From IMG/VR virus record IMGVR_UViG_3300043788_000031, positions 1 through 41,864 of that record: a stretch of 41,864 nt of DNA. One strand, 5' to 3'. This DNA comes from a virus. Both the position numbers and the translations under genes were made by a program. Under the pieces are notes generated by a model, which saw only the letters and a program-made list of their open reading frames with translations, was not told the origin of the DNA and ran no database searches. How positions within the stretch are numbered: the stretch's first letter is position 1; each line of letters opens with the position of its first letter. Of this stretch, positions 7,291 through 37,371 are shown one piece after another.

Positions 7291-7752
7291 TCACGTCGAT
7301 CTGTAGCTCTGGGTCATGGCCCAAAACGCCGCCTGGGCCAGCAGGATCTGTCCAACGGCATCGTGAGAGGGGAGCCCGCGAATGAGGCCCAGCTGGCTGG
7401 TCTCTGGGATCAGGATGTTGGCCGGAGAGTGATTGGCGGTCCACAGCAGCGTGCGGATGCCGGCCTCCTGGGTCTTGCGCCACTTCACGTGGCGGTCGTA
7501 GGCCTCCCACTCGTGTCGCATGCCGGTCAGGAGCCACTCCGATTCAGCCCAGATCATGGCGCGGTTTCCCAGGTGCTTGTCGACGAACTCGTCGATCATG
7601 TCCATGCCCTGGTGGTCGGTCACCAGATCCCAGTCCACGTCAACGTAGCGCGTGGTGTCCTGCAGGATAGCAATCGCCTCTTCCGGAGGCCGACCGAACT
7701 CGAATCGAATCGCCGTGCAGTGTCCCTTCCCGGAAGCCATCATCACGTTCAT
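7291..7752 (-). CDS. Hypothetical protein, 153 aa
   Basis: The start chosen is the ATG coupled to the upstream stop (TGATG); a longer reading to 7809 would lie inside the peptidase gene. The sequence is mixed alpha/beta with several Asp, Trp and His residues (VDVDWDLVTDHQGMDMID; WAESEWLLTGM) and alternates strands and helices in a way reminiscent of RNase H-like folds. I cannot place it in a family. It follows the HslV-like peptidase gene directly, so the two may be expressed together. Confidence 0.65.
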   Translation of the reverse strand: MNVMMASGKGHCTAIRFEFGRPPEEAIAILQDTTRYVDVDWDLVTDHQGMDMIDEFVDKHLGNRAMIWAESEWLLTGMRHEWEAYDRHVKWRKTQEAGIRTLLWTANHSPANILIPETSQLGLIRGLPSHDAVGQILLAQAAFWAMTQSYRST

Positions 7753-8270
7753 CAGATCGGATCCTCGATCACGCCAGGGCTCATGTCCACGAACGGACCT
7801 GCCGTCCACGGATCCACCAGGGACGCGATGATCACGGCCTGCTTGGCGGTCAGCTTCTCGGAGGCGTGCATGGCGCCCATCGCCGCCTTCGCCCCGCTGC
7901 CAATGGCGTAGAAGCCGTAGTTGGCATCCAGGTCAATGATCTCCGGCACCCAGTACGAATCGTACTGCACCAGCTGACCCTCCGGGGTCAGAACCAGGAT
8001 GAACAGATCGTCGTTCTCGGTATTGGTCTCGATCACGTCGGGGCGCGAGATGTCGCTGTAAAGCGGCAGCCCATTCTTGCCGAGGTTCTCATCCGCCCAT
8101 CGAAAAAATACCAGACCCGGGCCGTTCTCTCCGCTGGCCCCAACCAGGCAGCCGTTCTTCAGCCTGAAGATCTTCTTGACGCTGAACATCCGGTCGCCGC
8201 CGGCATCACTCGAAACGGTGAGACGGGAATCGGCGGCCATGCGGCCGTGACGGACAACGATGGTGGTCAT
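7752..8270 (-). CDS. HslV-like Ntn-hydrolase (proteasome-type peptidase)
   Basis: Starts MTTIVVRHGRMAADSRLT, so removal of Met exposes an N-terminal Thr like the catalytic Thr of HslV (TTIV). Further matches to bacterial HslV are AADSRLT (Asp14, the active-site Asp), SVKKIFRL (Lys32/33, the active-site Lys) and YAIGSGAKAAMGAMHA near residue 120, matching the HslV AIGSGG-YA-AAA helix. Length (172 aa) is close to HslV (176 aa). No HslU-type ATPase is present in the window, so it could pair with host HslU or act alone. Known proteasome-fold phage proteins exist, but their roles are unclear. Overlaps the RNA ligase gene by ATGA. Confidence 0.82.
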   Translation of the reverse strand: MTTIVVRHGRMAADSRLTVSSDAGGDRMFSVKKIFRLKNGCLVGASGENGPGLVFFRWADENLGKNGLPLYSDISRPDVIETNTENDDLFILVLTPEGQLVQYDSYWVPEIIDLDANYGFYAIGSGAKAAMGAMHASEKLTAKQAVIIASLVDPWTAGPFVDMSPGVIEDPI

Positions 8271-19672: not shown

Positions 19673-20139
19673 AGATTTGCCGCAAATGCTTGCGCCGACT
19701 TCCCATGGTGGAATTTTACGAGCACCCAAAAATGGTGGATGGCCACCGCAATCAGTGCAAGGCGTGCGTGAAGTCCAGATCCGCGGCATACAGATTAGCC
19801 AACGCTGATAGCCTTCGATGGATCGACCGCAAACGAGATGCCACCACCAAAAGAACCGCGGCACGAGCCATTTCCAATAAACGCCGCACCACTATCCAGA
19901 GACAATTAGACAACTTCAGGTGGGCCGGCGGTGATGTTGCTACTGTCACTGAAAAGCCAGAATTTTGTGAATGCTGCAGTGGCAGCCCTGGTAAAAAGGG
20001 CTTGTGTTTGGATCACGACCACGCTACTCTCGCGTTCAGAGGATGGCTGTGCCAGTGGTGCAATATCGGCATCGGTCATTTCAAGGACAGCCCGGTAAGG
20101 CTGGGCCAGGCAATCAAATATCTTGAGGAGCGAAAATGA
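19669..20139 (+). CDS. Endonuclease VII-like recombination nuclease
   Basis: A 156-aa protein with an N-terminal zinc ribbon (C4xxC7 and C30xxC33) and a C-terminal endonuclease VII-type HNH motif: C100xxC103, then LCLDHDHAT (D115-H116-D117-H118), RGWLCQWCN (C128, C131, N132) and a final helix with AIKYLEER. T4 endonuclease VII resolves Holliday junctions and branched DNA before packaging. The start is the ATG overlapping the preceding stop. Base composition is visibly more AT-rich than that of its neighbours, suggesting separate acquisition. Confidence 0.85.
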   Translation: MKICRKCLRRLPMVEFYEHPKMVDGHRNQCKACVKSRSAAYRLANADSLRWIDRKRDATTKRTAARAISNKRRTTIQRQLDNFRWAGGDVATVTEKPEFCECCSGSPGKKGLCLDHDHATLAFRGWLCQWCNIGIGHFKDSPVRLGQAIKYLEERK

Positions 20140-20675
20140 GCTACCACATGACCATCATCCAGGGCAACCTGGGCAAAGATCCTGAGCTGAAGACGCTCAG
20201 CAGCGGCAACGATGTCGCGAATTTCAGCGTCGCCGTCACCGAGAGGTGGAAATCGGACGGTGAGATGCAGGAGCACACCGAGTGGTACAACGTCAAGGTC
20301 TTCGGCAAGCAGGCCGAGGTCTGCGAGAAGTACCTGCACAAGGGTGACGCTGTCCTTCTGGCCGGTCGCATGCGTACCCGCACCTACGACAAGGACGGCG
20401 AGACCAAATACGTCGTCGAACTAATCGTGGACCGCGTGAGCCTGCTGGACAACCGCGGCCGCGATGCTGGCGACCGAGATGACAAGCCGGCGCGTGGCGG
20501 TCGAGATGAGCCGCGCCGCGACAGCATATCCGCGACCACTGGCCGCGGTGAGGGACGGGAGACTCGCAGAGAGGAACCGCGTCAAAGCAGACGGGAAACT
20601 GAGCGCGCTCCGGCCCGCTCCGGACGTACCGAAAGCGCCGACAATCAGGACTTCGACGACGACATCCCGTTCTAG
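20136..20675 (+). CDS. ssb: Single-stranded DNA-binding protein
   Basis: A 179-aa SSB. The OB fold spans residues 1-110 (QGNLGKDPELKTLSSG; FSVAVTERW; TEWYNVKVFGKQAE; YLHKGDAVLLAGRMRTRTY). It is followed by a disordered Arg/Asp/Gly linker and a terminal DFDDDIPF. That acidic tip is the hallmark for recruiting bacterial SSB partners, so the phage SSB could tap host repair factors. It is the last protein gene before the non-coding tRNA-rtcB region and overlaps endonuclease VII by ATGA. Confidence 0.94.
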   Translation: MSYHMTIIQGNLGKDPELKTLSSGNDVANFSVAVTERWKSDGEMQEHTEWYNVKVFGKQAEVCEKYLHKGDAVLLAGRMRTRTYDKDGETKYVVELIVDRVSLLDNRGRDAGDRDDKPARGGRDEPRRDSISATTGRGEGRETRREEPRQSRRETERAPARSGRTESADNQDFDDDIPF

Positions 20676-20953
20676 CTTTACCTGGTTCTGTCGTAAGGCC
20701 CCTATTCGGCGCTCCGTGTGGGGTTTGTGAGAGTAGCGACTCCAGCCAGAACCGGCCCGCGTACAGGCAGGGTAGTGCCGGCGAACCCCATCGAAAACGG
20801 GGCACAGGATCCGGAAGGTGCTCACCGACCACACTGGTGATGGCTACCAGGGAAGACTGGATGACACGGCGGAAAGTACGTCGTGAGTTGCGCCCCAACG
20901 CCACGGTGACCTTCGGGCGACCTACTGGCAGCGGGGTGGCAGCAACATGAATT
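20676..20953 (+). other. 278-nt non-coding region with many predicted stems; candidate structured RNA
   Basis: No convincing gene lies between ssb and the tRNA. The sequence holds a series of hairpins: 20682-20690 pairs with 20747-20755 (9 bp); CCCC 20699-20702 with GGGG 20720-20723; GGCA 20766-20769 with TGCC 20776-20779; CCCC 20786-20789 with GGGG 20799-20802; CTGGT 20834-20838 with ACCAG 20846-20850; CACGGC 20865-20870 with GTCGTG 20880-20885; and GCCAC 20900-20904 with GTGGC 20936-20940. It may be an RNA leader or a separate ncRNA. It contains no hammerhead core and no known family was recognised. Structure is by eye, without covariation. Confidence 0.45.
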
Positions 20954-21029
20954 TGGGAGATAGCTCAGTAGGTAGAGCGCGGCGCTGTTAACGCCGTCGT
21001 CGCAGGTTCGATCCCTGCTCTGCCAGCCA
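20954..21029 (+). tRNA. tRNA-Asn (anticodon GTT)
   Basis: All arms fold: acceptor TGGGAGA/TCTGCCA with one G-G mismatch at the fourth pair, D-stem GCTC/GAGC, anticodon stem CGGCG/CGCCG with loop CTGTTAA (anticodon GTT at 20987-20989), 5-nt variable loop, and T-stem GCAGG/CCTGC with loop TTCGATC. The discriminator is G and CCA is encoded. First pair T-A and G73 fit Asn identity. It reads AAC codons. It lies upstream of the RNA ligase rtcB. Confidence 0.93.
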
Positions 21030-21033
21030 CGGA

Positions 21034-21114
21034 TCATTTGACAGGGGTCGGCTAGAGGCGCAACCTACGGCTGGCGAGTCGCGTCGCCAGAGGGCGCCGG
21101 CCCCGTTCAAATGA
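21034..21114 (+). ncRNA. Long structured hairpin between tRNA-Asn and rtcB
   Basis: Positions 21034-21041 pair with 21107-21114 (8 bp). A 2x2 internal loop follows, then 21044-21052 pairs with 21096-21104 (9 bp, with one G-T). Inside lies a 7-bp hairpin, CTGGCGA (21071-21077) with TCGCCAG (21084-21090). It begins 5 nt after the tRNA CCA end and ends just before the rtcB ribosome site (GAGGAGG, 21118-21124). It could be a processing element, regulator of rtcB or a separate RNA. There is no T-run, so it is not a simple terminator. Confidence 0.5.
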
Positions 21115-21128
21115 CCTGAGGAGGTTGT

Positions 21129-22361
21129 ATGCCGATTAAGCACATTGTCGCCGGGCGATTCCCGGTGAAGATCTGGGCAGACGAGGTCGAGGACTCTGCG
21201 ATGAAGCAGCTGCGCATGCTTGGCAGCCTGCCGTTCATCCACAAACACATTGCCGTGATGCCTGACGTTCATATGGGTATCGGCTCGTCTGTCGGCACCG
21301 TGCTGGCGACGCGCGGCGCAATCGTGCCGGCAGCTGTCGGTGTCGACATCGGCTGCGGCATGATGGCCGTCCAGCTGAACCTGATCGCATCCGATCTGCC
21401 GGACAGTCTTGCCGACATCCGCTACGAGATTGAAGGCCACATCCCGCACGGTCGATCTGACCATGGGGGCGAGAACGACCGCGGCGCATGGGGCAAGGAA
21501 CCGTCGAACGTGGTCAGCGCCTGGTGCAAGCTGATGGACGACGACAGGCTTATGTACGTCAGCGAAAACCATCCGAAGCTGTTTGCGTCTCACGCTCTCA
21601 GCCGGCAGGCGCCGTGCCAACTTGGAACGCTTGGAACCGGCAACCACTTCGTGGAGCTGTGCCTGGACAAGGAAGACAACGTCTGGCTGATGCTACACAG
21701 CGGCAGCCGCGGCATCGGCAACCGGATCGGCACCTACTTCATCCAGCAGGCTCGCGAGGCTCTGGAGATGTACCACGTACCGCTGGAGCACCCGGACCTG
21801 GCATACATCCCGGATGGCGTCGAGCTGTTCGCGGACTACTGGCACGCGCTGTCGTGGGCACAGGACTATGCCCGCGTCAACCGAGAGCTGATGATGTGGG
21901 CGGCCATTCAGGCCATCCAAAAGGCCATGGGCGATCCAGACATCCAGTACGGCGCGATGGCCGTGAACTGCCACCACAACTACGCCACGCTGGAGAACCA
22001 CTTTGGCCAAAACGTCTACGTAACCCGCAAGGGAGCTGTCCGCGCTCGTGAAGGCGACCTTGGAATTATCCCAGGGTCAATGGGAGCCCGCAGCTTTATC
22101 GTCCGCGGAAAGGGAAATGCTGAGAGCTTCTGCAGCTGTTCTCACGGCGCTGGCCGGCGGATGTCACGCGGCGAAGCAAAGCGACGATTTTCGGTGGCTG
22201 ACCTGGCTGTCCAAACTGCCGGAGTCGAGTGCCGCAAAGACGCGGACGTGCTCGATGAAATCCCTGGAGCTTATAAGGACATTGATACCGTGATGTCCAA
22301 CCAATCCGACCTGGTGGAAGTGGTCGCCGAACTGAAACAGGTGCTATGTGTCAAAGGATAA
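21129..22361 (+). CDS. rtcB: RtcB RNA ligase
   Basis: A 410-aa ligase (E. coli RtcB is 408 aa). It joins 2',3'-cyclic-phosphate or 3'-phosphate ends to 5'-OH ends using GTP and Mn2+. Visible signatures are MPDVHMG, VGVDIGCGM, GTGNHF, HSGSRGIG, CHHNYA and the guanylated histidine H339 in SCSHGAGRRMSR. GAGGAGG lies 4 bases before the ATG. In bacteria RtcB repairs tRNAs and rRNA cleaved by toxins or ribonucleases. Here it follows a phage tRNA and structured RNA, suggesting repair of that tRNA or host tRNAs. Confidence 0.95.
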   Translation: MPIKHIVAGRFPVKIWADEVEDSAMKQLRMLGSLPFIHKHIAVMPDVHMGIGSSVGTVLATRGAIVPAAVGVDIGCGMMAVQLNLIASDLPDSLADIRYEIEGHIPHGRSDHGGENDRGAWGKEPSNVVSAWCKLMDDDRLMYVSENHPKLFASHALSRQAPCQLGTLGTGNHFVELCLDKEDNVWLMLHSGSRGIGNRIGTYFIQQAREALEMYHVPLEHPDLAYIPDGVELFADYWHALSWAQDYARVNRELMMWAAIQAIQKAMGDPDIQYGAMAVNCHHNYATLENHFGQNVYVTRKGAVRAREGDLGIIPGSMGARSFIVRGKGNAESFCSCSHGAGRRMSRGEAKRRFSVADLAVQTAGVECRKDADVLDEIPGAYKDIDTVMSNQSDLVEVVAELKQVLCVKG

Positions 22362-22653: not shown

Positions 22654-22934
22654 TCCCAACCAGCAAGGAAGGCTACCTGACCATGGGCGACGGCGTCTTC
22701 TTCGAACTAAACAGCCCGGTGGCCGAGGAATACCTGCGTCGCAACCTAGTGGTCGCCAAGGCGTACGGCGCGAAGGCCGGCGTGGCCAAGGCGCTGGAGC
22801 GCGTGCGACAGAACAAGTCGAGCCCGAAGTGGTTGCGCAAAGCGTTGATGGAGGCTCAGTCGCGGCTCGACGGCGTGCCGTCAGAGATGGCTGCGTATCG
22901 CGACGAGCTGAAGCGGCGCGATGATGAAAGATAG
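22650..22934 (+). CDS. Hypothetical helical protein, 94 aa
   Basis: The GTG start overlaps the TGA of the gene before it. Residues 20-94 are charged and helical (EEYLRRNLVVAKAYGAKAGV; KWLRKALMEAQSRLDGVPSE), fitting a helical bundle or coiled coil. A longer frame upstream would lie over the previous gene and is discounted. No family recognised. Confidence 0.6.
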   Translation: MIPTSKEGYLTMGDGVFFELNSPVAEEYLRRNLVVAKAYGAKAGVAKALERVRQNKSSPKWLRKALMEAQSRLDGVPSEMAAYRDELKRRDDER

Positions 22935-23484
22935 CATGGGTCGTCTGGAAGAAAAGACCAAAGAGTACAACCGCATCATGGACGAGCGGAAAGGCCCGCG
23001 CCCTAGCGGCCTGACCGGAACCGTCGACCCGTTCCACTGCAGCGTCGAGCGCATGATGGACGAGGTCGACATCCTGGAGCGGCTGGCGAAGAGCTGGGAC
23101 CTCAGTTTCTGTCCTTGCCACATTGGTGCCGGCACTCTCAGCGGCGGCCTGTACTTCGCCCACGATGCAGCCGGCAACATCAAGGCGCTGGTGCACCCTG
23201 AGCGATTCCACACGACCATCGCCGAGCAGACGCTGAACTTCTGGTCGTTTCAGATAGACAACGGCTTCGAGACTGCCAAGAAGAACGGCGTGCCGTTCGT
23301 GGTGATCATCCAGCTGGACGACGGCCTGTACTCCCTCAACTTCAAGGAAGCGCCGGTCGATGTGGTGCATCGGCGCGCCATCGGCCAGCGCATCGCAAAG
23401 AGGCGCGAGTTCGAGGATGTTGTAAGCGCTGTCGATTACATCCATACTAAGCACTTCAAGTCGCTCCGCCGGAAGGCAGAGTAA
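22921..23484 (+). CDS. Hypothetical protein, 187 aa
   Basis: Alpha/beta protein with a charged N-terminal helix, then a mixed region with a CPCHIGAGTLSGG segment and FVVIIQLDDGLYSL near residue 130. Start could be ATG at 22921, 22924 or 22936; the first is used, overlapping the previous gene by 14 bases. No decisive motif is seen. The two nearby cysteines do not form a complete zinc site. Confidence 0.6.
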   Translation: MMKDSMGRLEEKTKEYNRIMDERKGPRPSGLTGTVDPFHCSVERMMDEVDILERLAKSWDLSFCPCHIGAGTLSGGLYFAHDAAGNIKALVHPERFHTTIAEQTLNFWSFQIDNGFETAKKNGVPFVVIIQLDDGLYSLNFKEAPVDVVHRRAIGQRIAKRREFEDVVSAVDYIHTKHFKSLRRKAE

Positions 23485-28206: not shown

Positions 28207-31200
28207 TTATTTTCCCATGATTCCTTGTGGCGGTGTTGATGGCAGGCTCTTCAGGAGGGCTGCCGTATGAGGCATGCCGGCGCCCGCCAGGGTGTCGGCC
28301 TGCTGATCTTTGGTCTGCCCCTGCAGCTTCTCGGCTACGGTGGGGCTCAATTTGCCGCCCGGCCGGATATCCCAGACGGACTGGGCGGTCTCGTTGATGG
28401 CGGTCTGCATGTCATCCAGGGCGGCGCGCTTCTCGTCTGGGCTCAGATCGCTGGACTGCACTTCGCGCATCTGGCGCCGCAGGTCGTCGACCTTCTTGAC
28501 GGCATCGTTGAACGGCTGATCGGCCGCCACCAGGTCCTCGTTGTTATTCAGCAGCTCGTCGATGCGCTCGGCAGCCTTTGGCGTATTGGTGGCAGACAGC
28601 TTTTTGATCGAGCCCATCACGTCCGCGGCTTGTCCAGCGATGTCGTACATCGTGTTCGAGTACTTGGTCTGCGACATCGGGCCTTCGTTGTAGAAGCGCT
28701 GGAACAGCGGCAGGCTGCCGTGCACGGTCGCCGGGGCGCTCTCGCCATTGGCGCGGCGCGCAGCCGCATCGGTCACCGCCAGGACGTAGTCCTGAACACC
28801 ACCGAAGTATCCCTGGCCCAAGTGCTGGAGCTGCTTGGGGCTGCGCAGCGCGCTCGGGGCGATGTCGGGCATCTCGTTTGCCAGCCAGCGGTAGGTGCTG
28901 TGCACGTACGGGCTGTCCTGTTCTTCCGGCAGAACCTTTTGGTCGGCATCCGTCAGGATGGGCGCACCTGTGAAGGTGTTCTTGTTCATGGCCAGCTCCA
29001 GCTCCGGCCACACCGCGGCGACGCGCGGGCTCAGGCTGTCTTCCTGCAGGAAGCTGTGGCCCACCAGGTTCAGAGCCGCCCAGTTCTTGTCTGGCTCGTC
29101 CGAGTTGGTGACGGCCGCATCCATCATCGCCTCGGGGATGGTGGCGAAGATCGTGCCGGTCTCGAACGGCTTCGGCACCTTGAAGTGCCCCATGGTTGGC
29201 AGCCAGAAGTGCCAGTAGCTGGCCTTGTCCTTGTCGGTCAGTGCCTGGTAGCTCGGGTCGTTGTGGTTCAGCGCCACGTAGGCGATTGAGGCCATCGACA
29301 GTAGCGCGCCGCGCATGGCCACGCGCATGGCAGCCTGCGGACTGCTGGTGGCATTCTTGAACAGCGTGTGCAGGGCCGAGACGTGGGCGCCCATGAACGG
29401 CACCGTGTCGAAGATGAACCGCGCTAGCTGCGCGTTGCCACGCTTGTGGTAGTCCATGGTCGACTTGGCCTCGTAGGCTGCCTCCAGCGGGCTCATGCCG
29501 CTCGACAGCGCGTTGTCGTATATCGCCAGGCGGTTCATGTTCTCCGAGACACCGATCACAGACCTGTACGCCAGCCACGCCTTGCGAGGGGTGTTGATCA
29601 CGTTCGCGCCAGCCGCTCGCTGGAGCGTCATACGGGTCTCTTTGGCGGCGCCGACCGGGTCGTACCCAAGACCCTCGAAAAGGCCGCCCTGGGCCCGTGC
29701 GTGGATCACAGAGGGGTCGTGAGTCAGGAACTTGATGGCACCCTTGACGTTGTCCACACCCAGGGTGAATGGCGCGGCCGCATCCGCGGTACGCCCCTGG
29801 ACAAACGCCTGCCACATGTGCTTCCAGCCGACGCTGGCGGCAAACTCAGGGGTCATGGTCGAGGTCAACGTCAGCGCGCGCTTCGGCAGGCTGAACAGTT
29901 TCATCCATGGGCCCCAGGTGGTGGGGCTGATAGCCTGGAGGCTACGGAACAGAACCGGATCGTGGACATGCCAGTATTCCTTCTGGCCGTCCCGCCACAC
30001 CGAAATGGCGCCCTCATCGGGTGGCGCCTTGGCTAGCAACAGTTTCTGCATGCCGCGGAAGGCCTTGTCCGGCATGTGATCGATGTCGACCCCGATGGCT
30101 TGCAGATCCTTGGCGACCTGCGGATGCGCGGCCTTGAATCCGGCGCGATCCAGCGGCGTCACCTGGTCACTCATGCCCTTGATCTCGGTAACGAACCCGG
30201 ATCCGGCAAGATTGTCGACCGTGGCGCGCGCCGCGTGGGCGCGCAATCCACTCTCGATCAGGTTCGAGAAGTTGGTCATGATGTTCTGGATCGGGTCGCC
30301 GATGTTGTTCTCGCCGCCGCGCAGGCGCGTGATCTGGTTCTTCACGTAGCCCAGCCCACGGTTGCCGGCGCTCGGATTCAGGTTGCCGTTTTCCATCACG
30401 CGGTAGAACGGGATGTAGTCGCCGTGGTCCCACATGGCGCGGCTCTCAGGATCAATGATGCCGGCCTGCTGTGCCCAGTCCAGGATCTTGCCCTTGAACG
30501 CGGCGTATTCCTTGGCGACGGCCTCGAACCTCGGGCTACCCATGGACTTTGCGGCAGCGATCTCTGCAGGGCTGAAAAGGTTCTCACGACCCTCTCCCAG
30601 GAGGCGCTCGGCGCGGCGCGCCACCATCCAAGCGGCCCACTGGTTCAGATCCTTGCCGAGTGGCTTCAAGATATCCAGCAAGCCGTGGCCACCGCCCTCG
30701 TGCGGATCGACGTTCACGTCATGCACGTCACCAGGCGCGCTCTGTCGGCCGGTTACCTCGTTGCCATTGCGATCCTTCCAGATCGGGTGACCATCCTCCA
30801 GGATGGCGCGCATCAGGCCGCCTGCATTGGTAGACAGCGACGCAGACTTGTAGCCGCGGTCGGCCGAGCTGATGCCGGCCATGGTCTCGGCGCGGTCGAT
30901 GCCGTGGAAGTGATCGAAGATGGCGGTCTCGGTGCGCGCGATGATGTCGCGTGTCGCATCTTCCCAGCGCTGCTTCAGCGGCTTCTCCGTCATGCCGATC
31001 TTCTTGACGAAGGACTCCAGGTCCTTGTTGCCACCGGTTGGCACGCCCTTGAGTTTCATCATCGGGGTGTTTTCGCCACCCGGGTTGAATCCCTCCTGGC
31101 CGGCTGCCTCGGCTAGCTTGTCTCGCGCGTACATCTTGCCGACCCACTGCGAGCGCACGTAGTCACGACTGGCGTAGATCAGGTTGTTCAGGTCGGTCTC

Positions 31201-34200
31201 ATTCCAGCCGTGCATCAGGCCGAGCTTGCGCAGCTGATCACGAACGAAGCCAACGATCTGGTGCCACACTGTGGGCTTCGCCTCGATGTCCTGACCCAAC
31301 ACGTGCTCGGATGCGCGGGCCACGACTTCCTCCGCCGCCAGCCGGCGCACTGCAACCGGGGATCCCTTCTGGCCGATGCGCTTGACCTCATCCCGCCACT
31401 GCTCAGGGAACGACACGGCGATGTGATCCATGACATCCCCGTAGCGCCCACCCAGCATGGCGCGTAGACCTTGGTGACCAACGGCTTCGTGGATGGCGGT
31501 AGTGCGAGCCTCTTCTGCGCTCGGGATATTGCTGCCGATCAGGTGGATGCTTCCACCCTCCGGATCCGGAACGAACATGCCAAGTGCGCGGGAAACTCCC
31601 GGCAGGTCCTGGACGTAGTCAGGAAGCGTCGTGTGGTCGTCGTGCAGGTTGATGGGGATGCCAAGGTGCGACTGCACATCCTGCAGCGCGCCGCGCATGT
31701 CCGCCTTGGACATGCCGATCTGCGATCCGCCCTGTCGGAACGGAACGTCTTCCCCGCTGGTGCCGCCAAGCCGCTCGCGGCGTAGAGTCTCTAGGCGTTC
31801 GGCTGCGCTGTGGAGGTTGGGGCTGAGAGCGCTGCGAGCAGCTTCCTCCGCTTCGCTTGCAGCTCCTCGCTCGGCACCGAAGCCTTCCTGGCCGCGAAGT
31901 TGCTCAAGGCCTGTACGGAAGTTGGAATCTCCGAGGACGGCACTGTGCTCGGGCCGACCGAAGAGACTGTGGAAGTCTGCTGTTCCTTTGACGAGTTCAT
32001 TCGAAATCTCTCCGTTCTTCAACAGCTCCGGGATCGAAGCCATCTTACCGAATTCATCAGCATGCTCGGTGGCCGCCTTGGCCCACGACCACACCGTCTC
32101 TTGTACCTCAGCCGGGGACCACTTGTCACCCGTCATCTGCTCCAGGATCTTGGCGGCCTCGCGCACCTTGGCTGAGTATCCCAGGTAACCGGCGCTCTTG
32201 CCAGGGCCGGTCTTGGTCAGGCCGCCGGCAAACACACTCTGGTTGACTTTACCGAAGGCGGCCATCCAGGAATCAAGGGTGACCTCGTTGGTCTTGCCCT
32301 GCAGGTTCTTCATGAAGCTACTGACCTTCGGTCCGCTCAGCGTCAGGTTCTCCGGATCCTCTGTGGTCAATGCGCGCACGCTGTTCGGGATCCACGCGCC
32401 AAGCACCGAGTCGGTCTTCTTGTTGCCAAGCACCGAGTCGCCCATGATCTTGTAGATGGACTGGCGATCCTGGGGGCGTCCGGCCTTGTCCCAGTTCACG
32501 AAGGTTCGCAGTGCGTTGTGGAAGTTCATCTCCACCGAGGTCTGGGGAGACATGGCGGCCAGCAGCGCGGAGAACCGCGGCGCATCCGCTCCGAATACGG
32601 AGTGTATTGCCTCCGCGGCATGCTTGTACCAGCCCTTCTTCGCCTTGCCGGCGAGAGCGGCTCCAGCCAGTTCCTTCTCGAAATCCTTGGGCAGGTTGCG
32701 GAAGAAGTCAACCATGCGTTGCGCACTGTCGCGGCGCAGCTGGTTCTGCTCCTCGGTGGTCAGGTGCTGCTTGACATCGGCCACGTGCTCGGCGGTCCAT
32801 TTGTCAGGCATGCGAGCCGCCACATCAGCACGGAAAGCCTCGGTAGGCTTGAAGAAGCGGGCCTGCCCCTTGAGGATACCTTCAGCTCCCGGTAGATGGT
32901 ATCCGCGGTATCCGGCAGCGGCGATGTCTTTCTCGGCTTGGCTGTGGTCATAGTTTCCATTCTCGTCGGTGTTCTTCCCGATGAAGTCCTCGGGATCCGT
33001 GGACAGGTCGTACATCTCGGAGCGCGGCACCTGGATGTGGTACTGCTGCTTGCCTCGCAACTCCGGCTCGACCTCGCCACCCATGGCGTACGCGCTGATG
33101 GTCTTCAGGCCCTTGTTGTTCGCCATGCGGCGCGCCTCTGCGCCCTTCAGGCCAGTGCCGTACTTGTTCGGGTCCAGCGTGACGCTGGGCTCTGTGGCGT
33201 CGCTGAAGTGCTTGAACTTCAGCACGTCGTCCTCAGATGCCAGGCTCTTGCCCTCGTGGTTCAGGAAGTACTCGGGATTGAACGGGCCCCACTTCTCGGC
33301 AGCCGGACCGTGCAGCTTGCCATTGCCATTCGCGTACTGGACGATGGCGTCCTGCTTGAACTGCTTCGACAGTTTCGCGGCTTCTGCGTCCGTCAGCTTG
33401 CGCGACAACGACGCCACCAGGGTGGGCTCAGTGCCGGACTGATGGATACTCTGCTTCTCGACTTTGACGCCCAGCTTCTCCAGCTGCGCGACCACCTTGG
33501 CCGGATCAACCTTGCTGCCGTCGTTGACGTTCAAGCCGACGTTGAGCATCGGCTTGCGAGTCGCCAGGCGGAATGCGATGCCTACAGGTTCTTCAGACCC
33601 AGCGGCTTCAGTCTCACGGTTTGGTACTTCGGCTTGTCGCTCGCCGTGACCACCGGGTGCGGCTGCAGTCTCGCGAAGTGTTTCGCCAGCACGGTTTGGT
33701 TGCGCTCCAGGTTCCCCGCGAAGTCTCCAGGTAGCCCCGCCTTCGGCACCTTCGGTGGCGCCGGCTCGTGCGTTTCCGTTTTGTTCAGTGCCGCGGCCAC
33801 CGTTGGCCCTAGGTTCGGGAACAGGTTCACCCCTGACGCCGTGGTACGTGGCGTCACTGATGCGTCCGGCGGCGTGTTCAGATTCTGTGGCATCGTTGAG
33901 TTTGCTCCGGATGTCATTGTAGTTCAAAACCGGAAGCTGCTCGACCGGGATCACCCGGGCACCGCCCTTTCCGTTGCTGTTGTCGACCACGGTGATCTTG
34001 ACCTGGTCGTCCCCGGCATAGCGGGTGGCCAGCGCATGGATCACGCGGTTGCTGTTGGTGTGGGTCGCGGCATGCACGTCCATGGGTACCGTGCGGCCGG
34101 TGCCGAACTTCTTCTCCTGCTTGGAGGCGCGCTTGAGCACGCCATCGGTCCACGCCTGCACTGGCTCGCGGTACGTGTGGAGGATGTGAGCCTGGTTGCC

Positions 34201-37200
34201 GCTCTTCTTGACTGCCTCGATGCGGCGCACCGCGGAGTCCAGGCTGGCCAAGTTCGAATCGTAGAACGCGCGGGCGCGGCTGATCTTGGGGTCCATCTTC
34301 ATGGCGGCCTCCAAGCCTGAGGTCTTTCCAGACCCAGTGCCGCCTGAGGTGAAGATCACGCCAGGCACTTCGTTCTTCTTGAGCGGCCGTTGCAGTTGGC
34401 GGGCGAACATTTCCTTGGCCAGCTCGGACGCCGGTTCCTGCACGGCGCTGGAGCGCGTGCGGTCCCTCAGGTAATCAGGGCTCAGCTCACGCGCGATGTC
34501 GGCGCTGACGAATTTGCCACCCATGGTCTCGGGCAGCTTGCCGTAGTCGCTGATGGCCTTCTCTGGGTCGCGCTCAATCTGCTTGGCGAAGCGGCTCTGG
34601 ATCTGCGCGTCGTGACCCGTCAGGGAAGCGTCCAGGGGGATTTTCTTCAGAGCCCCACCCAGGTCCCGCCCCAGCTGGTTGAAGCCGCCAACGGGCTCGT
34701 ATTGCGCCTGGAGGGCAGTCTGGTCGGCCTGCTGTCCGCGCGCTTTGGCCAGGTCGGCTTCTTTGGCGGCCTGTCGGCCAGCTTCCGCCTTGTCGAAGGC
34801 GGCCTGCTTGGCGGCCTCGGCCTTCTCCCCGCTGCTCTTGTAGGCCGCCTCGATGTCCGCCAGCTTGCGGGCGTTCTCGGCAGCGCTTTCGGTGGTCAGG
34901 GTCTTGCCGTGATCCAGCTCCAGGTGCGGCTGTACGGCGCGTTCCAGGGCGGTTTGGCGCGTGTTCTGGAATGCGCCAAGCTCGCGGCGGCCGGCGGGCA
35001 GAAGACTGAAGCCACCCTCGCTGTCGGACGGCTTGATCAGGCCGGCGCGATCCAGCGATACCATGTCCTTGGGGTCGACCTTCTTGCCCATGCCAAGCCG
35101 TTCGAGGTTGCCGTAGTCGGTACCGGTCAGGCGCAACGTCGGATCTTCCTCGGGCGAGAGCGGTCCCTCGCCAAGCTGCCCAGGTAGGGGCTCCTTACCT
35201 GACTTAGTTTCTGCTGCTGCAGCTGGTTTAGTTTCTGCTGCAGCGACAGGCTCGGGCGCCGGTGTTCCCTTCTCAACCAGAGACGTACGCAAACGACGGC
35301 CCTCTGGCAGCAGGATGGGCAGGCCGGCCGGCGTGACTTTGGCCAAGCCGTTGGCGACCAGGTCGTGCATCACCGGGCCTTCGATGGGCTCGGCGTTGGC
35401 GATCTTGTTGAGAGCCTCCAAGCGCGATGCTTCAGCTCCGCTCAGCGGTGCCGTGGCTCCAGCGCCGGCTGACGGCGGTTCCTTGGCGGCGGCGCCGGCC
35501 GCGCCACCGGCTTGGTCAGATCCTGTTGGCGCTTTACCGACTTCCAGAGATTCGGCTGAAGCTCCCGGTAGTGTCCCGCTCTGGTTATGGTCATAGGTGG
35601 TCTCCGGCATTTCGACACCGTGTGCCTGCGCTTCGGCCAGCGCAGCAGCCACGGTCTTCTGCTGGGCGGGCGGCAGCTTGCCCTGTGCAAGCAGCTCCTG
35701 ATTCAGTGCGATGCTCGTCTGCTGGTACTCGTCCTTGGCATCCAGGATGTCCTGGTGCTTGATGGGTACGGCAGGGTCTGCGGCCGCGCGCTGCGCAGCC
35801 TGGAAGTTCTTCCGAGCGGTGACGAAGTTCTTCAGCTTCTGGCTGACCAGGTCGTCCTTCACATCTTGCGGGCCACGCTCAGCGCCCTTGCCGGCAACGG
35901 CGCCGATTGAGGCACCAAGTACGCCGCCGGTCAGCGCGTTGCGCACCGTGGAATCCAGCACGCCTTCCCACACGCTCTGGCCGGTGATCGGCGACATCGC
36001 CATGTTCTGGCCCAGTTGGGTACCGGCTCCGATGGCGCCACCCTGTGCCGCGCCAGCCGCACCGGCGCGCAGCGCAGCGCCAGCTCGCGTGGCGGCAGCC
36101 GGGATCTTCGAGACCCACTTCGCCATGAACCGGTTCAGCGGCTCACCGCCCAGTCCAGCCGTGACGGCCGTGGTGATGCCGGCCATGATGCCGCCGTCGG
36201 TGGCGATCTGCTCGCGGGCGGCGTTCTCGCTCAGGCCGTGCTCGCGCAGCTCGCGGTACGGCGCGTAGTTCATCAGCGTCTCTTCGCTCAGGTTATTCAC
36301 GGCATCGTGAGTCTCATCCGCGGCCTCGCCACCGAACACCAGCCCGTTGGCGGCGATGTTGGTTACGACGGCAGCCTGGTGAGCGGCGCGCAGCGCGGCA
36401 TCCGAGGCGGCCTTCTGAGCCACGCTCACCGGCGCCTTCTCAGCGGCAGCCTTGGCCAGCACCTGGGTGAACTTGGAGGCGTAGCTCGCCTTGGCTGCCA
36501 GCGCGCTCGCGCCATCGGTGGCGATCATGGGCGCCATGGAGGTGACGCCGTCCATCCACCAGTACGGATCCTTGACGCCCTCGCCCAGCTTCCACTTGCC
36601 GTTGGCCGAGGTGTCGATCATGTGCTTCTCGATGCCGGCGCGCGCGGCTGGGCTCATGGCGCCCACGAAGGCGGCCTCGCCCTGCTTGAACTTGTCGGAC
36701 AGCGCGCTGGATGCAGAGATGACCGGATTCAGGGGATTCAGGTCTTCTGCAGTCATACCTTCGCGACGCTGTTCAGGCGTCAACGCGGCTTGAGCGGCTG
36801 CGGTCATGCCGGTCTTGTTGCCCAGGTAATTCCAGGTAAGCTCCGGCAGCCGCGTGATGGCTGATCCCATCGCGGCAAGGTTCTTGGTCAGACTCAGCGC
36901 CGCGTCATCAAGCGGACCCTGGCTCTGCTTCGGTCCGCCACCGAAGTCAGAGAACGCATCGATCAGCTTGCCTGGCTTGGTACTCAGGAAGTAGTCGCGC
37001 ACGCCAGCGATGCCACCCTTGTGCCAGGCATCCACCATACCGGCGCGCGTATTGGATACATCGCTTGGGGGAGCCTGCGGTTCGGCGCGAGTCGTGCCAG
37101 GCGGCGGTGCGTTCTGCGCTGGCGTCGTAACGGCCCCAGGCTCGGTGGTGATGGAATTGTCGGCGTTGCGGTGAACGGAAGGCAGGTACCCGAAGGTGTC

Positions 37201-37371
37201 CTGGAACTGCTGAGCTGTCTGCGGGTTTTTCTGCAGGTACTGCAGCGCCTCAGGCGGGGCCTGCGGTGGCGTGAAGTCCTCAGGCAGCGTGCCGAATGTG
37301 CTCTTGAACTGAGACCATGTGTCGGGGTTTGCCTTCAGGTACTGAACTGCTTCGTCCGGAGGTGCGTCCAC
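28207..37371 (-). CDS. Giant polyvalent virion protein (3054 aa)
   Basis: Starts at GTG. Domains in order: two 30-residue N-terminal repeats (PDEAVQYLKANP; PEALQYLQKNP); a Gly/Ala hydrophobic segment around 425-492 that may enter membranes; a P-loop kinase/zeta-toxin-like domain with GGTGSGKT (1010-1017, K1016); an ADP-ribosyltransferase-like region with YGTGLKG (1404-1410); a domain with KGWYKHAAEAIHSVFG (about 1575-1760); a zincin-like HEAVGH (H1961-H1966); and a C-terminal large-polyvalent-associated (LPD38-like) region near 2450-2760 with MNRLAIYDNAL. Such proteins of phages are packaged and ejected into the host. It lies between structural genes and the lysis cassette. The domain assignments other than the P-loop are by motif resemblance. 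Confidence 0.8.
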   Translation of the reverse strand: MDAPPDEAVQYLKANPDTWSQFKSTFGTLPEDFTPPQAPPEALQYLQKNPQTAQQFQDTFGYLPSVHRNADNSITTEPGAVTTPAQNAPPPGTTRAEPQAPPSDVSNTRAGMVDAWHKGGIAGVRDYFLSTKPGKLIDAFSDFGGGPKQSQGPLDDAALSLTKNLAAMGSAITRLPELTWNYLGNKTGMTAAAQAALTPEQRREGMTAEDLNPLNPVISASSALSDKFKQGEAAFVGAMSPAARAGIEKHMIDTSANGKWKLGEGVKDPYWWMDGVTSMAPMIATDGASALAAKASYASKFTQVLAKAAAEKAPVSVAQKAASDAALRAAHQAAVVTNIAANGLVFGGEAADETHDAVNNLSEETLMNYAPYRELREHGLSENAAREQIATDGGIMAGITTAVTAGLGGEPLNRFMAKWVSKIPAAATRAGAALRAGAAGAAQGGAIGAGTQLGQNMAMSPITGQSVWEGVLDSTVRNALTGGVLGASIGAVAGKGAERGPQDVKDDLVSQKLKNFVTARKNFQAAQRAAADPAVPIKHQDILDAKDEYQQTSIALNQELLAQGKLPPAQQKTVAAALAEAQAHGVEMPETTYDHNQSGTLPGASAESLEVGKAPTGSDQAGGAAGAAAKEPPSAGAGATAPLSGAEASRLEALNKIANAEPIEGPVMHDLVANGLAKVTPAGLPILLPEGRRLRTSLVEKGTPAPEPVAAAETKPAAAAETKSGKEPLPGQLGEGPLSPEEDPTLRLTGTDYGNLERLGMGKKVDPKDMVSLDRAGLIKPSDSEGGFSLLPAGRRELGAFQNTRQTALERAVQPHLELDHGKTLTTESAAENARKLADIEAAYKSSGEKAEAAKQAAFDKAEAGRQAAKEADLAKARGQQADQTALQAQYEPVGGFNQLGRDLGGALKKIPLDASLTGHDAQIQSRFAKQIERDPEKAISDYGKLPETMGGKFVSADIARELSPDYLRDRTRSSAVQEPASELAKEMFARQLQRPLKKNEVPGVIFTSGGTGSGKTSGLEAAMKMDPKISRARAFYDSNLASLDSAVRRIEAVKKSGNQAHILHTYREPVQAWTDGVLKRASKQEKKFGTGRTVPMDVHAATHTNSNRVIHALATRYAGDDQVKITVVDNSNGKGGARVIPVEQLPVLNYNDIRSKLNDATESEHAAGRISDATYHGVRGEPVPEPRANGGRGTEQNGNARAGATEGAEGGATWRLRGEPGAQPNRAGETLRETAAAPGGHGERQAEVPNRETEAAGSEEPVGIAFRLATRKPMLNVGLNVNDGSKVDPAKVVAQLEKLGVKVEKQSIHQSGTEPTLVASLSRKLTDAEAAKLSKQFKQDAIVQYANGNGKLHGPAAEKWGPFNPEYFLNHEGKSLASEDDVLKFKHFSDATEPSVTLDPNKYGTGLKGAEARRMANNKGLKTISAYAMGGEVEPELRGKQQYHIQVPRSEMYDLSTDPEDFIGKNTDENGNYDHSQAEKDIAAAGYRGYHLPGAEGILKGQARFFKPTEAFRADVAARMPDKWTAEHVADVKQHLTTEEQNQLRRDSAQRMVDFFRNLPKDFEKELAGAALAGKAKKGWYKHAAEAIHSVFGADAPRFSALLAAMSPQTSVEMNFHNALRTFVNWDKAGRPQDRQSIYKIMGDSVLGNKKTDSVLGAWIPNSVRALTTEDPENLTLSGPKVSSFMKNLQGKTNEVTLDSWMAAFGKVNQSVFAGGLTKTGPGKSAGYLGYSAKVREAAKILEQMTGDKWSPAEVQETVWSWAKAATEHADEFGKMASIPELLKNGEISNELVKGTADFHSLFGRPEHSAVLGDSNFRTGLEQLRGQEGFGAERGAASEAEEAARSALSPNLHSAAERLETLRRERLGGTSGEDVPFRQGGSQIGMSKADMRGALQDVQSHLGIPINLHDDHTTLPDYVQDLPGVSRALGMFVPDPEGGSIHLIGSNIPSAEEARTTAIHEAVGHQGLRAMLGGRYGDVMDHIAVSFPEQWRDEVKRIGQKGSPVAVRRLAAEEVVARASEHVLGQDIEAKPTVWHQIVGFVRDQLRKLGLMHGWNETDLNNLIYASRDYVRSQWVGKMYARDKLAEAAGQEGFNPGGENTPMMKLKGVPTGGNKDLESFVKKIGMTEKPLKQRWEDATRDIIARTETAIFDHFHGIDRAETMAGISSADRGYKSASLSTNAGGLMRAILEDGHPIWKDRNGNEVTGRQSAPGDVHDVNVDPHEGGGHGLLDILKPLGKDLNQWAAWMVARRAERLLGEGRENLFSPAEIAAAKSMGSPRFEAVAKEYAAFKGKILDWAQQAGIIDPESRAMWDHGDYIPFYRVMENGNLNPSAGNRGLGYVKNQITRLRGGENNIGDPIQNIMTNFSNLIESGLRAHAARATVDNLAGSGFVTEIKGMSDQVTPLDRAGFKAAHPQVAKDLQAIGVDIDHMPDKAFRGMQKLLLAKAPPDEGAISVWRDGQKEYWHVHDPVLFRSLQAISPTTWGPWMKLFSLPKRALTLTSTMTPEFAASVGWKHMWQAFVQGRTADAAAPFTLGVDNVKGAIKFLTHDPSVIHARAQGGLFEGLGYDPVGAAKETRMTLQRAAGANVINTPRKAWLAYRSVIGVSENMNRLAIYDNALSSGMSPLEAAYEAKSTMDYHKRGNAQLARFIFDTVPFMGAHVSALHTLFKNATSSPQAAMRVAMRGALLSMASIAYVALNHNDPSYQALTDKDKASYWHFWLPTMGHFKVPKPFETGTIFATIPEAMMDAAVTNSDEPDKNWAALNLVGHSFLQEDSLSPRVAAVWPELELAMNKNTFTGAPILTDADQKVLPEEQDSPYVHSTYRWLANEMPDIAPSALRSPKQLQHLGQGYFGGVQDYVLAVTDAAARRANGESAPATVHGSLPLFQRFYNEGPMSQTKYSNTMYDIAGQAADVMGSIKKLSATNTPKAAERIDELLNNNEDLVAADQPFNDAVKKVDDLRRQMREVQSSDLSPDEKRAALDDMQTAINETAQSVWDIRPGGKLSPTVAEKLQGQTKDQQADTLAGAGMPHTAALLKSLPSTPPQGIMGK

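Follow-up and report, generated by a model that had tools for sequence, protein, structure and literature searches.

What kind of RNA, if any, lies between the gene for a single-stranded DNA-binding protein (SSB) and the RNA ligase gene rtcB in a 41,864-base virus contig from IMG/VR (hereafter the window, meaning the whole stretch of DNA analysed)? The SSB stop and the rtcB start are separated by 453 nt that include a single tRNA gene. A sequence-only reading had described this gap as a structured non-coding locus leading from the tRNA to rtcB, and the SSB, tRNA-Asn and rtcB gene calls reproduce exactly the 453-nt gap and the 278-nt part 5′ of the tRNA (region A) that it had measured, with 99 nt between the tRNA and rtcB (Table 1). 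Judged from its sequence, the encoded RtcB is complete, with its catalytic motifs present: the active-site Cys/His motifs are kept (C76, H173, H190, H282 and H339), and the protein aligns along its length with P. horikoshii RtcB (1uc2/4dwq).

Table 1. Features of the SSB–rtcB locus, with positions in the window and the evidence for each.
Feature	Position	Strand	Evidence
SSB gene (single-stranded DNA-binding protein)	20136..20675	+	PF00436, E = 2.7 × 10−31
Region A, 5′ half, non-coding, unconserved	20676..20811	+	Alignment with L002, fold z
Region A, conserved module, three hairpins	20812..20890	+	Identity with L002, fold z, alifold
Region A, last hairpin, CUUCGG loop	20887..20943	+	Minimum-energy fold (window), alignment
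tRNA-Asn (GUU), encoded CCA	20954..21029	+	ARAGORN; Rfam RF00005, 61.6 bits
Element B, three-way-junction RNA	21034..21114	+	Folds, covariation with L002, alifold
B, helix P1	21034-21041/21107-21114	+	
B, internal loop CA/GU	21042-21043/21105-21106	+	
B, helix P2	21044-21052/21096-21104	+	
B, helix P3, loop CGCAA	21056-21058/21064-21066	+	
B, helix P4	21071-21077/21084-21090	+	
CCUGAGGAGG ribosome-binding segment and spacer	21115..21128	+	Alignment with L002; SD GGAGG 21120-21124
rtcB, RNA ligase, 410 aa	21129..22361	+	PF01139, E = 3.2 × 10−125

An RtcB protein search brought up a 50-kb IMG/VR contig (L002, also G001) with the same gene order as the window: the SSB end, a non-coding region A, tRNA-Asn(GUU), the element that we call B, and rtcB, with the SSB gene truncated at the edge of the contig. 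A large part of the window's genes have counterparts in this contig, RtcB among them (69% protein identity), which indicates that L002 is a genuine relative at a distance suited to comparison (hereafter the sister phage). At the DNA level, identity is 72% for rtcB, 78% for tRNA-Asn and 63% for the SSB tail.

In both genomes, element B reaches from the 3′ end of the tRNA to the SD of rtcB. It was found as the sequence-only reading had described it, as an 81-nt branched hairpin ending at the rtcB ribosome site, with an 8-bp (P1) and a 9-bp (P2) helix below two inner hairpins (P3 and P4). B is more stable than 198–200 of 200 shuffled sequences in both phages (z = −3.1/−3.4 in the window and −2.3 in the sister phage), but the best 100-nt window over B comes no higher than 146th of 5,570 in raw energy in this GC-rich contig, so that folding energy alone would not settle the case; comparison does. 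When the two sequences available for comparison were aligned (the structure having first been seen in one of the pair), all 21 of the 21 modelled pairs were standard in both phages, with seven pairs changed on both sides and two on one side. The double changes include C-G to G-C, A-U to C-G and U-A to A-U in P1, and G-C to U-G and G-C to U-A in P2. These counts were made on an alignment with the P4 tip cut out; MAFFT alignment of the full segment holding B (99 nt in the window, 129 nt in the sister phage) misplaces the 3′ strand, because P4 differs in length between the phages. Paired cells amounted to 100%, compared with 20–55% when the partner strand was slid by 1–3 columns, the pairing was matched by 3 of 500 shuffles, and the alifold z-score was −6.3 against column-shuffled alignments (0 of 300 as low).

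Several stretches in B and just 3′ of it are unchanged between the phages: CA/GY, the 2 × 2 internal loop that separates P1 from P2; YGCAA, the pentaloop of P3; GGGCG ahead of the 3′ strand of P2; and, ahead of the start codon, the CCUGAGGAGG segment, which is identical up to GGAGG. At three places in the stem, G-U replaces a Watson–Crick pair, and the covariance model of B scores 89.3 bits on the plus strand versus 24.4 bits on the minus strand, both of which indicate that B works as an RNA of the plus strand. The pairing of the 5′ and 3′ ends in a long stem (P1 and P2) is a feature common to many unrelated RNAs. B is a real conserved RNA whose fold has been kept with compensation, and the covarying stems that had been proposed as a check on the structure are thus present in a homologous phage.

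Region A is less well supported. The many stems ascribed to its 278 nt are at chance level (z = −0.5; 63 of 200 shuffles fold as well), and one structured RNA across the whole 453 nt is not supported, since in its 5′ half A lacks both conservation (about 50% identity to the sister phage, with large gaps) and a stable fold (z = −0.39 in the window and +0.54 in the sister phage). What is conserved is a module in the 3′ part (fold z about −1.6 to −1.8 across the two phages; −1.64/−1.81), which is 75% identical between them, interrupted by two gaps of 1 nt each (blastn aligns 77 nt at 82%, E = 4 × 10−12), as high as rtcB or the tRNA. Its three predicted hairpins (20817-20845, 20847-20860 and 20865-20885) carry the conserved loops GACCAYAC, GGAAGA and GGAAAGUAC. 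The alifold z-score of the module is about −1.9. Because there are few variable sites, little covariation can be seen: the first and the third hairpin each show a single clear double change. The last hairpin of A, just 5′ of the tRNA, keeps its CUUCGG loop in both phages, with weak conservation elsewhere. A role as a CsrA sponge, considered because GGA occurs in two of the loops, was rejected: the number of GGA triplets is close to the expectation from composition, as judged by eye, and the loops misfit the usual ANGGAN hexaloop. Region A is therefore a conserved non-coding module before the tRNA and not an ornate 278-nt RNA, and the description of a structured non-coding locus holds for B, which is conserved and covarying, but within A only for the 3′ part. 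That the region might be a decayed protein gene, which had been named as a refuting outcome, is ruled out by the gaps between the two phages in A and B (1, 3, 12, 18, 26, 41 and 66 nt), which are not all multiples of three, unlike those in rtcB, and by the lack of frame conservation.

B also proved to be uncatalogued, as the sequence-only reading had supposed. Searches of Rfam 15 returned no match apart from the tRNA for the whole window at gathering scores and no credible match for positions 20600-21200 at E values up to 10; self-cleaving ribozyme, riboswitch and T-box families were likewise without an Rfam match at E ≤ 10. The YGCAAC loop of B includes AAC, an Asn codon that matches the GUU anticodon of the adjacent tRNA, but a T-box specifier was rejected for this loop, as three pairs are at chance level and no other T-box feature was seen. 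With covariance models, only the window and the sister phage were recovered, whether about 1 Mb of fetched loci was searched for B, about 0.7 Mb for the A module, or 17 whole records for B; scanning IMG/VR with patterns of the A module gave the sister phage alone. The B pattern occurred in 45 IMG/VR contigs, namely that of the sister phage and 44 others, none of which scored as B (the best of the 44 reached 16.5 bits, with an E value of 0.24, and overlaps a coding region). A pattern scan of GTDB genomes gave three matches, which are unlike the element (none of the 3 loci has a tRNA, and one match falls within a protein gene); blastn against phages and plasmids gave only tRNA matches; and neither RtcB-protein scans nor an adjacent-gene scan produced a third member. 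RtcB itself is absent from the distant structural relatives PTXU04, D274, CRP-901 and phiARM81mr and from four IMG/VR contigs, all picked by terminase and structural protein. Within the IMG/VR, GTDB, phage and plasmid records searched, B is thus lineage-specific, and the phage lineage that carries it is without a near relative in the phage records searched. As an RNA motif, B is new, uncatalogued and represented by two members, but its kind is familiar (a structured phage leader or a tRNA-linked phage RNA).

The pairing of a tRNA with rtcB is itself ordinary. Among the 74 phage rtcB loci that we tabulated, 16 (including that of the sister phage) have a tRNA at most 130 nt upstream of rtcB, and the association is a known one in phages, linked to the repair of cut tRNAs (PMC7824862, PMC5648845). 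B was present only in the sister phage among these 74 loci, and most phage rtcB genes, including some directly behind a tRNA, are without such a leader, so RtcB in general does not need B. As a separate observation on these loci, tRNA-Pro accounts for 8 of the 16 with an upstream tRNA (some of the loci being near-duplicates) and also lies just downstream of rtcB in L004 (as a second tRNA), L005, L017, L043 and L047; its recurrence beside rtcB might reflect which tRNA a host defence cuts.

Other features of the two phages concern genes beyond B. The acceptor stem of the window's tRNA-Asn has a G4-G69 mismatch where the sister phage has a perfect G-C, which could be decay, editing or a sequencing error. 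Downstream of rtcB, a 187-aa protein (22921-23484) is 87% identical in the sister phage (compared with 69% for RtcB) and has no match among phage records, its only IMG/VR match being in the sister phage. A 3,054-aa protein (28207-37371, minus strand) is 70–84% identical to its counterpart there, and within it a stretch of 333 aa is similar to large phage proteins whose annotations are DarB-like antirestriction, DNA methylase or virion structural protein. A 172-aa protein (7752-8270, minus strand) weakly matches PF00227 (proteasome family; E = 2 × 10−4, just under the curated cut-off) and is possibly, from this match, a phage HslV/proteasome-like hydrolase. Finally, the metagenome that gave L002 also contains a 6.7-kb contig (L085, IMGVR_UViG_3300050821_002428) that encodes a terminase 90% identical to that of the window; this contig may be another piece of the sister phage.

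In our view, the reading that fits B best, to which we give a probability of roughly one half, is that it is a structured, untranslated, cis-acting 5′ leader of the phage rtcB message. In two genomes, a conserved RNA fold lies directly 5′ of the rtcB start codon. The SSB gene, region A, tRNA-Asn, B and rtcB would be transcribed together; they share a strand, and a search for a promoter-like site between these genes found none, which makes a single transcript the simplest reading. From what is established of tRNA maturation, host RNase P and tRNA 3′-end nucleases would then cut out the tRNA, so that the rtcB mRNA would begin with B. There B would fold into the closed two-helix stem and three-way junction that covariation demonstrates, and the CCUGAGGAGG ribosome site is predicted to be left just outside. 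For either phage, prediction with 30, 60 or 90 nt of rtcB added leaves the fold of B as it was and places the SD outside helices P1–P4. Since predicted SD availability is similar with and without B, we do not claim an on/off switch; the stem at the new 5′ end may shield the rtcB message from decay and set its translation. A tRNA together with a tRNA-mending ligase is a usual phage answer to host tRNA-cutting defences, and a single transcript of this locus would supply both a spare tRNA-Asn and the ligase.

Candidate sites of protein contact are the two invariant loops, the internal loop CA/GY and the pentaloop YGCAA, and the protein may, by analogy with T4 DNA polymerase, be RtcB acting as an autoregulator. 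T4 DNA polymerase represses its own message (gene 43) through a leader hairpin (PMC3014915). Like B, the gene 43 operator is a leader hairpin lying shortly before the ribosome site, in a phage message that encodes an enzyme acting on nucleic acids; unlike B, which leaves the SD outside its fold, it extends into that site and is the binding target of the encoded polymerase. A regulator of rtcB, one of the roles suggested by the sequence-only reading, is therefore the best-fitting role for B, and the argument for it is one of position. No observation here favours the role of RtcB substrate, which had been suggested alongside it. We consider improbable an elaboration in which B, after cleavage by a host tRNA nuclease or by its own activity, is resealed by RtcB, with the cut or joined state reporting tRNA damage and controlling the amount of RtcB.

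Other explanations of B give less weight to the leader. Stems between genes that are cut by RNase III are common in phages such as T7, and B could mainly be a processing signal of this sort, its stem of about 17 bp being cut so as to split the tRNA from the rtcB message. P1 and P2 do stack to 15–17 pairs across a symmetric 2 × 2 loop, between genes that need separation; however, a plain hairpin would suffice for this, yet YGCAA, CA/GY and the three-way junction have all been kept, and the tRNA can be freed without RNase III, which leaves this reading rather unlikely. Inverted repeats also occur at tRNA-linked sites, and B is known here from sequence alone, so the conserved feature might conceivably be one of the DNA (a protein-bound inverted repeat or a recombination remnant at the tRNA gene); we regard this as very improbable, given the three G-U replacements of Watson–Crick pairs, the far lower model score on the other strand and the lack of a recognisable integrase in the scan of flanking genes. 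Equally hard to credit is the proposal that only the tRNA and rtcB matter, for tRNA supply and repair, and that the structures in the spacer are incidental. The tRNAs within 130 nt upstream of other rtcB genes, in the absence of any such element outside the sister phage, fit that proposal, as does the established pairing of tRNA and RNA ligase in phages (PMC7824862, PMC5648845), but a spacer of no importance would have preserved neither 21 of 21 pairs across seven double changes nor 75% identity in 77 nt of non-genic sequence.

A different possibility, unlikely though less so than these others, is that processing of the transcript releases, along with the tRNA, both B and the conserved part of A as separate small, stable RNAs; B might then act as a bait for a host tRNA nuclease or be something that RtcB joins. 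Self-contained folds do flank the tRNA on both sides, and the conserved loops in A are unexplained by a leader role. Precedents exist in T4 RNAC and RNAD, of unknown function, which come from the T4 tRNA region (PMC3014915, PMC9697503), and in GOLLD and ROOL, which occur in phages, often near tRNA islands (PMC12286853). The likeness of B to RNAC and RNAD is one of location, that of non-tRNA RNAs from a phage tRNA region; B differs in lying between a single tRNA and rtcB, and it may never be separate. The A/B locus resembles GOLLD and ROOL in being phage-borne and near a tRNA gene, and region A resembles GOLLD in its conserved 3′ part and variable 5′ part (PMC12286853). Unlike these RNAs, it has no Rfam match and no evidence of oligomers or a pseudoknot, and whereas many GOLLD members exceed 800 nt (PMC12286853), the whole gap in the window, tRNA included, is far shorter. 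The absence of an Rfam match or a recognised tRNA-like domain, and the end of B a few nucleotides before the rtcB SD, likewise count against separate RNAs.

Nor is there support for B as a companion RNA of the bacterial Y RNA type, as had also been suggested. Salmonella Y RNAs sit with rsr and rtcBA (PMC7790460), and YrlA and YrlB, in rsr-yrlBA-rtcBA operons, are like B in being small structured RNAs beside rtcB; the long stem in which the two ends of B pair is a Y RNA trait as well, though an unspecific one. B differs from them in having no Rsr/Ro60 gene in either contig (a search for PF05731, TROVE/Ro60, found none in the window or the sister phage, although both contigs may be incomplete, and did find its positive control), no Rfam match and no recognised tRNA-like domain. 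Lacusarx and jumbo phages, like the window, carry tRNA genes with RtcB for tRNA repair; the portions of those reports at hand describe no structured leader, and the other rtcB loci checked here are without B.

RtcB and tRNAs are a frequent combination in phages, and it is a wider question how these time or sense their need for RNA repair. To this question, a conserved, folded rtcB leader would offer a concrete handle, open to reporter, cutting, mutation and RtcB-binding tests. In addition, B contributes an uncatalogued RNA motif from a phage lineage that stands without a near relative in the phage records searched.
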